This document shows positions 2,054 through 6,766 of a stretch of 64,000 bases of DNA, piece after piece. A model generated the notes under the pieces. It was not told where the DNA came from. It did no database searches and saw only the letters and a list, made by a program, of their open reading frames with translations. The position numbers were made by a program, and so were the translations under genes. The first letter of the stretch is position 1, and each line of letters starts with the position of its first letter. Origin of the DNA: Wenzhouxiangella sp. 15190 (GTDB lineage Bacteria > Pseudomonadota > Gammaproteobacteria > Xanthomonadales > Wenzhouxiangellaceae); NCBI RefSeq assembly GCF_003417465.1, contig NZ_QVMV01000028.1, positions 124,001-188,000 on the forward strand, in the 5' to 3' direction.

Positions 2054-3331
2054 TCATGCGTCGAACAGGGACGGCAAGGCCAGGCTCAGTGCCGGCCAGG
2101 CGGTGATGATCAACAGCGCCACGAACAGGATGGCCAGAAACGGCAGCACGGCACGGTGGAGCGTGGGAATATCACGTTCGAAACGAGGGCCGGCCAGCAG
2201 AGGATCGTTCGCCAGCGGCGGTGTGCAGTAACCGATCTGGAGGCTGACCACCGACACGATTCCGAGATGAACCGGGTCGACGCCCAGGGCCGTGGCCACC
2301 GGGATGATCAGCGGAGCCAGAATAACCACCGCAGCGCCAATATCAATCATCATCCCGGCGGCGAGCAGCAGCGCGATCACGGCCAGCAGAAAGATCAGGC
2401 GGCTGGCGACAAGCGGTTCGAGCCACTCGTACAAGCGTTGAACCACGCCCGCGTCGATCATGACGTTGGCCGAGGCCATCGACATGCCCAGCACCAGGAC
2501 GATGGCGGCCACCGGCATCATCGCCGCGGTAACGATCTCCGGCAACTTCGACGGACGGATGTCACGACGGACCAAAACCAGGGTGATCAGAACCCAGGCT
2601 GCCGCGATCACCGCGGCATCGACCACGCGCAGGTAGCCCGAGTAGATGCCGCCGAGGATCACGAAAGGCAGCGGCAGTTCCAGGGCGTTGTCGCGCAATG
2701 CCCGCCCGATCGGCTTGCGGGACCCCTTGCCGCGAGGCAATCCCTGGTGATCCCACGCGGCATAGCCGCCCATCAACGCCAGTATCAGGAGCCCCGGCAA
2801 CAGTCCCGCCAGGAACAACGCTTCGATGCTCAACGCCGCGCGCGGCGCGACCTGCTGGGCGACAACCGCGTAGAGAATCAACGGCAACGAAGGCGCGAAC
2901 AGGACGCCCGGGCTGGAACCGGCCGTGACGACACCGAGGGCGAAATGCCGCGAATGACCGTTCTGGATCAGGACGGGCAGCAACAGGCTGCCGAGGACGA
3001 TGACGGCAACGCTGGCGGTCGCCATGAATGCCGTGAGCAACGAACAAGGGATAAGCACGAAAAACACCGCGCCACCGGAGAGCCGGCCCGGCATCGCTTG
3101 CATCAGGCCCAGCAAACGCCCCGGCGCACGGCTTCGTGCCAGCAACATCCCGGCAAAGGAGAAAAGCGGGAGCGCCACGAGCAACGGCAGCTCACCGATG
3201 CGCACGAACGTCATGCTGGCCAGCAGCGGATCCAGTCCCGCCTGCCAGTAGCCACCCAGTGCGGCCAGGGCAACCACGGCGAACAATGGCATGCCCAGGA
3301 GCGCCAGGACGATCAGCACGAAGACCATCAT
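2054..3331 (-). CDS. TRAP transporter large permease (DctM family)
   Basis: A 425-residue, very hydrophobic protein with about 12 predicted membrane segments and DctM-type glycine/proline-rich turns (GSSPGVLFAPSLP, IGYCTPPLANDPLLAG). In TRAP transporters the large subunit is the sodium-coupled elevator-type translocation channel for carboxylates and related solutes, in the inner membrane. Its start overlaps the small-subunit stop by 4 bases, so the two are translationally coupled. No periplasmic DctP gene lies on either side, so the substrate cannot be guessed. Confidence 0.88.
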   Translation of the reverse strand: MMVFVLIVLALLGMPLFAVVALAALGGYWQAGLDPLLASMTFVRIGELPLLVALPLFSFAGMLLARSRAPGRLLGLMQAMPGRLSGGAVFFVLIPCSLLTAFMATASVAVIVLGSLLLPVLIQNGHSRHFALGVVTAGSSPGVLFAPSLPLILYAVVAQQVAPRAALSIEALFLAGLLPGLLILALMGGYAAWDHQGLPRGKGSRKPIGRALRDNALELPLPFVILGGIYSGYLRVVDAAVIAAAWVLITLVLVRRDIRPSKLPEIVTAAMMPVAAIVLVLGMSMASANVMIDAGVVQRLYEWLEPLVASRLIFLLAVIALLLAAGMMIDIGAAVVILAPLIIPVATALGVDPVHLGIVSVVSLQIGYCTPPLANDPLLAGPRFERDIPTLHRAVLPFLAILFVALLIITAWPALSLALPSLFDA

Positions 3332-3849
3332 TCCGGTTCACCCTGATCGGGGACCGGCGACAGGGCCGCCGAAGGGGGAGACACCGCCCAGGCCAGAAAG
3401 CGGGCAGCCATCATGGCGAAGCCGATCGGAATGATTACCCGCACCACCCACATGGGCACATTCAGAAACGCCACGGCCTGGAACTCGTACTCGAGCGCAA
3501 CGATGTCGAGACTGGTCCAGGTCAGCGCCAGGCAGATCAGGGCCGTGGCTGCGAACAACACGCGCCGCAGCCAGACCACGGCTACCGCCGGCAGCCGGCA
3601 CTCCAGAACACCGATGCGGATATGACGCAATCGTCCCGTGGCGACCACGGCGCCGGTCATGACCAGCCACAAAACCACGGCACGCATCGCAGCGTCGATC
3701 CACGGCAGTGTCATGCCCGCCAACGCCCGAAATCCAATATCGGCCAGCCCGAGAAGCAGCAGGATCAGAAACAGGACGGTGAGCGTGCCGGATTCGATCC
3801 ATCGAATCGATCGCGTCGCCGGATCCTGGTCGCGATCAGGCCCGGACAC
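3328..3849 (-). CDS. TRAP transporter small permease (DctQ family)
   Basis: A 173-residue protein with four hydrophobic segments and the DctQ-like stretch GMTLPWIDAAMRAVVLW followed by VVATGRLRHIRIGVLE. The small subunit pairs with DctM and is needed for TRAP transport. It precedes and overlaps the large permease gene. Upstream (3850-3945) is a short non-coding gap before folD containing an imperfect hairpin (CTTGCGGGC at 3896 / GCCCGCGCAAG at 3914) that could end folD transcription. Confidence 0.85.
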   Translation of the reverse strand: MSGPDRDQDPATRSIRWIESGTLTVLFLILLLLGLADIGFRALAGMTLPWIDAAMRAVVLWLVMTGAVVATGRLRHIRIGVLECRLPAVAVVWLRRVLFAATALICLALTWTSLDIVALEYEFQAVAFLNVPMWVVRVIIPIGFAMMAARFLAWAVSPPSAALSPVPDQGEPE

Positions 3850-3945: not shown

Positions 3946-4815
3946 TCACGGCGCGCGAACGACCAGCCCGGCCGCTTCGGCCGTATTCTGCATCAGGGTT
4001 GCGACCGTCATCGGTCCCACGCCCCCCGGAACCGGTGTGATCCAGCCGGCGCGCCTTGCCGTGGTTTCGTAGTCGAGATCGCCGTGCAGCTTTCCGTTTT
4101 CACCACGGTTGATACCGATGTCCACGACGATGGCGCCCTCGGCAATCCAGTCCGGATCGACAATGCCGGGCTTGCCGACGGCAACGCAGAGCACTTCCGC
4201 CCGTTCGACGTGGGCGCGCAGGTCCCGGGTGAACCGGTGGGCGATGGAAACCGTGGCACCGGCCAGGAGCAATTCCAGCGCCAGCGGCCGGCCGACGATG
4301 TTGGACGCACCCACCACCAGCGTGTTCATGCCCTTGGTATCGATATCGTGTGCGGCAAGCAGTGTCATCACCCCGCGTGGTGTGCACGGCCGCAGGCCGG
4401 GGTCCCGCAGGGCAAGCCGACCCATGTTGGCCGGATGAAAACCGTCGACATCCTTGTCCGGTGCAATACGCCGGGTCACGGCGTGTTCATCGAGATGGGC
4501 CGGCAACGGAAGCTGCACCAGAATGCCATCGACCGCCTCGTCGCGATTGAGGGCGTCGATCAGCGCCAGCAATTCGCTGCGACCCACGCCGTGTGCCAGA
4601 CGATGGGTGGTCGAGACCATGCCGGCACGCTCACAGGCACGAATCTTGTTTTTGACATAGATTTCGGAGGCCGGGTCGTCACCGATCAGGACCACGGCAA
4701 GCCCGGGCGGCCTGCCGCCAGCGTCCACGTGATAAGACACGGCATCGGCGACGTTGCAGATCAGTCGGTCGGCAACCGCTCGACCATCCAGAATACGGGC
4801 GGGAGATTTCGTCAT
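3946..4815 (-). CDS. folD: Bifunctional methylenetetrahydrofolate dehydrogenase/cyclohydrolase
   Basis: A 289-residue protein from ATG 4815 ([16 protein letters not shown]). An upstream in-frame ATG at 4884 would add 23 non-conserved residues and run into the divergent gene, so I chose 4815. FolD signatures are visible: [20 protein letters not shown], the NADP-binding [15 protein letters not shown], and the terminal [15 protein letters not shown]. It interconverts 5,10-methylene- and 10-formyl-tetrahydrofolate in the cytoplasm. The divergent GPx-like gene begins only about 22 bases away, so their promoters must overlap or be very compact. Confidence 0.95.
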
Positions 4816-4837
4816 GACCGATATTGTAAGGTAGGAT

Positions 4838-5350
4838 TTGGTGGGAAACCGACTCGGAGTCAGACCGGACGTGAACCTGTTCAATCATCACTTCAAGGAT
4901 CTCTCGGGCGCAAACATCTACCTCGAGCGCTATCGTCACCAACCGTTGTTCATCGTCAACATCGCGACTGAGAGTCGCTTCCTTCCCCAAATCAAGCGAA
5001 TGCAACAACTGCACACGCAGTTCAATCGCCATGGCCTGGTGGTGATCGCCATTCCCTCCAACGACTTCGATGAAGAACCGCGCGACGAGGCGGAAATCGA
5101 GGCGTTCCTGCGCGAAAACTATCCGTTCAGCTTCATCATCACGCAACGCTACTCGGTCACTGGCCCGGAGGCTCATTCACTCTTTCGCGAGATGCTGCAG
5201 GAAAAAGGCGCCTCCATCCTGCCCCGCGGCAGCTTCAACAAGTACCTGTTCGATCGTCATGGCGAGCTGGCCGAGCATTTCCCGCCCGAAACCCTGCCCG
5301 ACGACCCGATGCTGATTCGCTGCGTCAATCAGCAGTTGGGGAGCCTCTAG
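4838..5350 (+). CDS. Glutathione peroxidase-fold protein lacking catalytic residues
   Basis: A 170-residue protein that follows the GPx fold end to end: [12 protein letters not shown] at the start, the [12 protein letters not shown] strand-helix, [10 protein letters not shown], and [12 protein letters not shown]. All four positions of the GPx catalytic tetrad appear changed: Ser46 for the peroxidatic Cys (family NVASKCGFTPQ), Asp76 for the Gln of the NQF motif, and Gly131-Ser132 for the Trp-Asn of WNF. It is therefore unlikely to be a thiol peroxidase. The start is uncertain: TTG 4838 and GTG 4841 follow an AAGG-type site, and GTG 4871 gives a family-like N-terminus. There is no signal peptide, so it is probably cytoplasmic. 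Confidence 0.82.
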
Positions 5351-5362
5351 GCAAACAGGCGC

Positions 5363-6766
5363 TCAGCGTTTCCGGTTCTTGCGGACAAACTTCTTGAGCC
5401 GCCTGCGCTTTTCGACCTGCCGGGGCGTGAGCTTGTTGCGACGCCCGGCATACGGGTTGTCACCCTCACGAAACACCAGCCGTACCGGCATGCCGGTCAG
5501 GCGGAAGTGCTTTCGGAAGGTGTTGACCAGGTAGCGCTGGTATTGGTCGGGAATACCCCGCACCCGATTGCCGTGAATCACGATCCGGGTCGGAAAGTGA
5601 CCCCCACTATGGGCGTAGCGCAATTTGGGCGACTTGCGCTGCACCGCCGCCGGCGGATGAGCCGCCACGGCATCGCGCAGTGTGCGGGTGAGTGCGCCGG
5701 TGGGCAGTTCCTGCTCGCCGGCGGCATGCACGTGCTCGATGGCATCGGTGAGCTCGCCCAGCCCGCTCCCGTGCAAGGCGGAGATTGTCACCACCGGCGC
5801 AAAACGGGCGAAATCGAGCCGCTCGGCAACCTCCACGAGCACCGCGCGGCGGCGGTCATTGTCGATGGCATCCCATTTGTTGATCGCTATGACCAGTCCG
5901 CGTCCGGCCTCGATGACATGACCAGCCAGGCGGGCATCCTGTTCGGTAATGCCTTCGACGGCGTCACAGATCAGGCAGACGATGCGAGCTTGCTCGAGCG
6001 ACTGTAGCGCCTTGATGGTGCTGAAGCGTTCCACGCCCTCGTGACTGCCCCGGCGGCGTCGAATACCGGCCGTGTCGATGAGGTGATAGCGGACGCCGTC
6101 GCGCTCGATGGTGGCGTGAATGGGATCCCGGGTGGTGCCGGCCACCGACGTGGCCAGGGCTCGCTCTTCGCCCAGCAGGCGATTCATGAGCGTCGACTTG
6201 CCGGCATTCGGCCGACCGATCAGCGCCAGACGCAGGCCGTCGTCGTCGGGCACACTGCTTTCTTCCGCCTCGGGCAGCAACTCGGCAAGTGCCTGGCCGA
6301 GGTGATCGAGTCCGCGCCGGTGGCTGGCCGAAATCGGACAGATTTCGCCCAGCCCCAGCTCCGCGGCTTCGGCAATCGCCAGGTCGGGATCCAACCCATC
6401 GGACTTGTTGACCACATGAACGACCGCTTTCCCGCGATTGCGCAGGTCGGTCGCGATCTCGTGTTCAACCGGAAGAATTCCGGCACGCGCGTCGGTCAGG
6501 AACAGGACCGCGTCGGCCTCGTCGATCGCCAGGCGGGTCTGGGCCTGGGCGCCCAGTTCGATCTCGCCACCCGCCTGGTCCAGCCCGCCCGTATCGACCA
6601 GAATCACCCTTCTCGCGCCCACCGTGGCGCGACCGTAGATGCGGTCGCGGGTGACACCGGGTGTATCCGCCACCAGCGCGTCCCGGGTCTGTGTCAACGC
6701 GTTGAACAGCGTTGACTTCCCGACATTCGGCCGCCCGACAATGGCGACCACCGGCAGCGTAGACAT
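5363..6766 (-). CDS. der: Ribosome biogenesis GTPase Der (EngA)
   Basis: A 467-residue tandem GTPase of typical Der length. The first G domain has GRPNVGKSTLFN, DTPGVTRD and NKSD. The second has GRPNAGKSTLMN, DTAGIRRRR and NKWD. The C-terminal KH-like domain (RIVIHGNRVRGIPDQYQRYL) ends in a basic tail rich in RRRLKKFVRK. Der acts in maturation of the 50S subunit. It is the last gene of the leftward operon ndk-rlmN-pilW-rodZ-hisS-yfgM-bamB-der and lies 11 bases after bamB. Confidence 0.97.
   Translation of the reverse strand: MSTLPVVAIVGRPNVGKSTLFNALTQTRDALVADTPGVTRDRIYGRATVGARRVILVDTGGLDQAGGEIELGAQAQTRLAIDEADAVLFLTDARAGILPVEHEIATDLRNRGKAVVHVVNKSDGLDPDLAIAEAAELGLGEICPISASHRRGLDHLGQALAELLPEAEESSVPDDDGLRLALIGRPNAGKSTLMNRLLGEERALATSVAGTTRDPIHATIERDGVRYHLIDTAGIRRRRGSHEGVERFSTIKALQSLEQARIVCLICDAVEGITEQDARLAGHVIEAGRGLVIAINKWDAIDNDRRRAVLVEVAERLDFARFAPVVTISALHGSGLGELTDAIEHVHAAGEQELPTGALTRTLRDAVAAHPPAAVQRKSPKLRYAHSGGHFPTRIVIHGNRVRGIPDQYQRYLVNTFRKHFRLTGMPVRLVFREGDNPYAGRRNKLTPRQVEKRRRLKKFVRKNRKR

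Follow-up and report, generated by a model that had tools for sequence, protein, structure and literature searches.

A probable glutathione peroxidase pseudoenzyme, derived in place from a cysteine peroxidase, between folD and der in Wenzhouxiangella

Within the window, the 64,000-nucleotide stretch of Wenzhouxiangella sp. 15190 DNA analyzed here, a gene for a glutathione peroxidase (GPx) homolog without the peroxidatic cysteine lies between folD and der (Table 1). The original prediction described an intact frame starting at 4838, and the forward-strand frame 4838-5350 is indeed open. The start itself was probably placed too far upstream: similarity among relatives begins only at GTG 4871 and their DNA 5' of it aligns as intergenic spacer, so that GTG 4871 is most likely the true start. 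Residue numbers given here count from TTG 4838 as residue 1, following the earlier frame. The divergent arrangement with folD was described correctly, but the space between the two genes, put at almost nothing, amounts to 55 bases. This spacer holds the stretch ATTGTAAGGTAGGAT, which is conserved across the clade of Cys-less relatives described below and whose ATTGTA core recurs 5' of many Cys-bearing orthologs. Read on the folD strand, the core is TACAAT and stands directly ahead of the folD ATG, where it may serve as the -10 box for a folD transcript with almost no leader. After folD, TRAP-transporter DctM- and DctQ-like genes occupy positions 2054-3849; several relatives (L008, L011, L014, L017, L020) likewise have a DctQ-like gene adjoining folD.

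Table 1. Features of the folD-der locus, in positions of the window
Feature	Position	Strand	Basis and remarks
folD, divergent neighbor	3946..4815	-	ORF; syntenic in relatives
folD / pseudo-GPx divergent spacer, 55 bases, contains conserved ATTGTAAGGTAGGAT	4816..4870	.	spacer comparison with relatives
pseudo-GPx CDS, GTG start, 159 aa	4871..5350	+	Pfam GSHPx 2e-18 over 4871..5350; start conserved in relatives
Ser46 (AGT), place of peroxidatic Cys	4973..4975	+	alignment to solved GPx sequences and relatives
Ser74; Cys in 10 other members of the Cys-less clade	5057..5059	+	subfamily alignment
Asp76, place of tetrad Gln; ancestral in subfamily	5063..5065	+	subfamily alignment
DEEPR loop, residues 78-82	5069..5083	+	alignment of relatives
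Leu91, resolving-Cys column	5108..5110	+	subfamily alignment
Gly131-Ser132, place of tetrad Trp-Asn	5228..5233	+	alignment to solved GPx sequences and relatives
der (engA) GTPase, convergent neighbor	5363..6766	-	ORF and translation; syntenic in relatives

The protein matches the Pfam model GSHPx (PF00255) at 2.4e-18, with 66 bits against a cut-off of 27, and the NCBIfam models PRK10606 (BtuE) and Gpx7 at about 4e-22, under their equivalog cut-offs. The nearest named relatives are W. sediminis XDB06 (82% identical) and a Wenzhouxiangella MAG (81%). An AlphaFold2 model, predicted from an alignment of four rows only, reaches a pLDDT of 82 and a pTM of 0.79, and its top matches in the PDB are all GPx (TM 0.80; Z 21.2, rmsd 2.1 over 159 residues). 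The protein thus belongs to the GPx family by descent and is predicted to adopt the thioredoxin-like GPx fold, in keeping with the expectation that the fold segments are preserved. Some solved GPx entries are described as Cys-to-Ser or Sec-to-Gly mutants, for instance 9kzm and 2gs3, so the GPx fold tolerates such changes.

Residue-level alignment to solved GPx structures places Ser46 on the peroxidatic Cys or Sec, Asp76 on the Gln, and Gly131-Ser132 on the Trp-Asn of the catalytic tetrad. The Ser46 codon is AGT rather than TGA, which excludes selenocysteine recoding. The claim that every catalytic position has been replaced therefore stands for Cys, Trp and Asn, residues that an active GPx requires, but not for the Gln. 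Specifically, all 35 Cys-bearing orthologs have Asp at the Gln position, and so do 10 of the 11 other GPx rows, which come mostly from the order. Because Asp appears to be ancestral to the whole subfamily and is present in ordinary Cys-GPx of the order, Asp76 is not a loss, and this position is uninformative on loss of function. Further changes accompany the missing tetrad residues. The column that we take, from the known layout of 2-Cys GPx, to hold the resolving Cys lies in a helix about 45 residues past the peroxidatic Cys; a 2-Cys GPx needs a Cys there, and the window protein has Leu91. All 11 ordinary GPx rows have Cys in this column, as do 22 of 35 Cys-bearing subfamily members but only 2 of 20 Cys-less ones; the resolving Cys has thus been lost in 18/20 Cys-less and 13/35 Cys-bearing proteins. 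In the NDFG-x-Q-E-P-G loop, the Cys-less clade has deleted the Gly and changed Gln to Glu, both fixed, which gives DEEPR in the window protein. As such, the losses in its lineage comprise Cys, Trp, Asn and the resolving Cys, together with the one-residue deletion and the Gln-to-Glu change in the QEPG loop. The window protein alone within the clade has also lost Cys74.

The wider subfamily was assembled as 55 members, drawn from 25 genomes in this family (including the window's) and 30 in a second family of the order, aligned with 11 other GPx, and a tree was built without the four tetrad columns. folD and/or der adjoin nearly all of these orthologs, and the arrangement of the window recurs in 24 other genomes of the family and in nearly all members from the second. 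The few exceptions have one or both neighbors missing from the fetched stretch, and some of these reflect a contig end or an extra gene in between. In many relatives (L104, L105, L109, L110, L112, L081, L092, L095), gpx and der are separated by a MoeB/ThiF-like gene that begins with a rhodanese domain; no such gene stands between the pseudo-GPx gene and der in the window. In some genomes of the genus the GPx gene has been lost altogether, and folD lies directly beside der (G023, L116; G007, L125). Bit scores separate the subfamily clearly: across 250 genomes of the order, same-locus members score at least 193 bits and everything else at most 160. A survey of these 250 genomes and of 369 genomes of the class found no subfamily members outside the two families, to which the subfamily is, as known here, confined. 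Three class matches at 171-182 bits were rejected as members, being ordinary Cys-GPx away from folD and der.

In the tree, the window protein falls in a clade of 11 Wenzhouxiangella genomes with 100/100 support and a stem of 0.69 changes per site, and all 11 members lack Cys, Trp and Asn. The orthologs sharing these changes that the original prediction proposed to look for thus exist, as one clade. Nine more Cys-less members lie outside it, all of which keep Asn and most of which keep Trp. Parsimony places six losses of Cys, in the window's clade, L027, L028/L029, L091/L096, L092 and L093-L095, a count that is approximate since deep forks are poorly supported and branches are long. Ser is the replacement in nearly all cases. 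One common origin for every Cys-less form is rejected (p-AU 0.0016); for the eight Cys-less members of the second family, a shared origin is rejected only marginally (p 0.044). The window's clade is not rejected by a tree of folD from these genomes (p-AU 0.33), and the Cys-less gene is therefore consistent with vertical descent. Two same-locus proteins, L014 and L015 (genomes G025 and G013), keep Cys and Asn and have Thr at the tetrad Trp, an intermediate state. Orthologs retaining Cys had been named as a finding that could overturn the original prediction. They do exist between folD and der, with Cys, Trp and Asn in place, so this objection partly applies; being the ancestral state, however, they help to date the loss and do not contradict it.

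Selection on the Cys-less clade was assessed through the ratio of non-synonymous to synonymous change, a comparison proposed with the original prediction, and the ratio proved low. Pairwise dN/dS within the clade ranges from 0.014 to 0.164, compared with 0.04-0.13 for most Cys-bearing pairs (NG86; most dS values near saturation), and the best pair, L004/L005, has a dS of 0.19 and a dN/dS of 0.014. Measured against folD, the rate of the gene in the Cys-less clade is about double that in Cys-bearing Wenzhouxiangella (ratios of 1.97 and 1.15), which suggests somewhat looser constraint in the clade. Mean entropy within the clade is 0.37 in the former active-site loops and 0.73 elsewhere, a contrast equaled by 1 of 151 shifted masks. 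Furthermore, the clade shows about 40 newly fixed columns, including Ile42, Thr44, Asp78, Glu79 and Arg82 in what was the active site. These patterns indicate remodeling under constraint, not decay. Loss of the catalytic residues in a gene kept by purifying selection is what makes a pseudoenzyme, and by these sequence measures the gene qualifies. The description of it as a pseudoenzyme rather than a decaying gene is likewise borne out by the fully supported clade, the low dN/dS and the predicted GPx fold.

The available data are best accommodated by a model, to which a probability of roughly 0.65 can be attached, in which the protein is a GPx-fold pseudoenzyme that arose in place from a true Cys-GPx, is kept by purifying selection and most likely has a binding or regulatory function exerted through the old active-site face. 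The ancestor between folD and der would have been a 2-Cys GPx with both the peroxidatic and the resolving Cys; the resolving Cys would have gone next, leaving a 1-Cys form, and the branch to the 11 Wenzhouxiangella genomes would then have lost the peroxidatic Cys along with Trp and Asn. The old face might now hold a partner protein, ancestral or new, or a small ligand. Where the peroxidatic Cys has been lost, the resolving Cys is usually missing too, and the residues fit a path from 2-Cys through 1-Cys to 0-Cys, with the provisos that the rows are not independent and that L091 and L096 break the order. One review cites the proposal that both cysteines were present in ancestral GPx (PMC9404953). 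Since the former active-site loops are the most conserved part of the protein and carry a new set of fixed residues, a binding or regulatory role is favored, and the function is probably non-enzymatic, with a partner or ligand bound at these loops. A thiol or selenol is indispensable for the GPx cycle. The window protein has neither at the peroxidatic, the resolving or the Cys74 position and would be incapable of this cycle, and we infer that it lacks peroxidase activity.

A broader reading would extend the binding function to the whole folD-der subfamily. Specifically, even the Cys-bearing members would act mainly through non-peroxidase binding, and peroxidase chemistry, being dispensable, would therefore have been shed some six times in two families. 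This extension can be entertained tentatively, at odds clearly below even.

That the protein is still an enzyme, working through a migrated thiol (Cys74 in relatives) or through non-thiol chemistry involving, for example, Ser46, Thr44 or Asp78-Glu79-Arg82, is unlikely. Ten other members of the clade do keep Cys74, so that a thiol function is possible there, and polar Thr44, Asp78, Glu79 and Arg82 are fixed at the former active site. However, the window protein has Ser74, and relatives have Ser, Gln, Gly or Asn in place of its sole Cys, Cys164 near the C-terminus; the possibility that another Cys has taken over as peroxidatic residue, raised as a way for the original prediction to fail, is thus not borne out, and Cys164 can be set aside as a relocated peroxidatic residue. 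In addition, Ser46 is replaced by Ala in L007 and Gly131 by Glu in L010, so neither is essential, and no GPx mechanism is known to operate in the absence of a tetrad thiol or selenol.

There is also a slim chance that the protein acts as a dominant-negative partner that competes with or regulates a Cys-bearing GPx. Some genomes of the Cys-less clade (G003, G016, G008, G029) do encode a separate, ordinary Cys-GPx, but ordinary GPx are not tied to the presence of the Cys-less form. Four genomes that are 95-99.8% complete (G000, which is the window's, G024, G018 and G027) gave no second match to the protein and so would have no GPx-family enzyme to regulate. The window's genome, moreover, has no other match above the GSHPx cut-off; because it thus seems to have no Cys-GPx, a dominant-negative role is unlikely there. 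A candidate second GPx on contig 18 of this genome (25 bits, under the cut-off) was rejected as a TlpA-like protein with a CGPC motif; this protein (L002, 580-1905) has 441 aa, with an uncharacterized N-terminal region followed by a C-terminal TlpA-like CGPC thioredoxin domain. As for the supply of glutathione, all 30 Wenzhouxiangella genomes have a gshB match, strong in nearly all, and an E. coli-type gshA (PF04262) was not found in any of the 30.

It is scarcely probable that the gene is an early pseudogene under relaxed selection, its frame still open by chance. The long stem branch, the faster rate relative to folD and the absence of the gene from the genomes in which folD adjoins der could all be read in this way. 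Against this, the frames of all 11 genomes are open and free of internal stops down to about 55% identity, the low dN/dS largely refutes decay, and some 40 columns have become fixed anew while the former active-site loops are the best conserved. A sequencing or assembly artifact, in favor of which nothing was found, is refuted by the recurrence of these states in 11 genomes assembled separately, among them W. sediminis (L033) and the single-contig G018 and G027.

Several known proteins provide a frame for the proposed pseudoenzyme. Ordinary bacterial Cys-GPx of the BtuE and Gpx7 types (PF00255) resemble it in predicted fold and show significant sequence similarity, whereas the window protein lacks the tetrad Cys, Trp and Asn and the resolving Cys, carries the QEPG-loop deletion and is short, at 159 aa. 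The Cys-bearing GPx at the folD-der locus (L016-L026, L073-L090, L097-L100), orthologous by position and by tree, share the Asp at the Gln place but keep Cys, Trp and Asn, with the resolving Cys present in 22 of the 35; activity as 1-Cys or 2-Cys peroxidases is probable for them. Human GPx8 (3kij, 3cyn) is among the best structural and sequence matches and also departs from the full tetrad, its Gln being replaced by Ser (PMC7409322), but unlike the window protein it retains the peroxidatic Cys. A further parallel comes from ciliates: Tetrahymena TtGPx11 and related ciliate GPx have no tetrad residues, one such GPx occurs in each of several Tetrahymena species, and TtGPx11 is thus, like the window protein, a tetrad-less GPx homolog conserved across species (PMC7409322). 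The ciliate proteins differ in being eukaryotic and in coming from a large multigene family, with Ser in place of Cys in one ciliate (PMC7409322). A search of the open-access literature found no bacterial GPx without the tetrad and no paper on GPx in Wenzhouxiangella. What seems new here is a bacterial GPx pseudoenzyme within a syntenic series with repeated loss; pseudo-GPx as such were already known in ciliates.

Pseudoenzymes are usually met as single oddities, whereas here 2-Cys, 1-Cys and 0-Cys forms line up as a series at one chromosomal position, with about six independent losses. For genome annotation the findings carry a warning, as genes labeled glutathione peroxidase in these genomes may be without peroxidase activity, and some of the genomes seem to have no other GPx. 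Taken together, the catalytic and non-catalytic orthologs form ready-made pairs for asking what roles GPx play beyond peroxide reduction, a question that also arises for the GPx-type sensors of eukaryotes.
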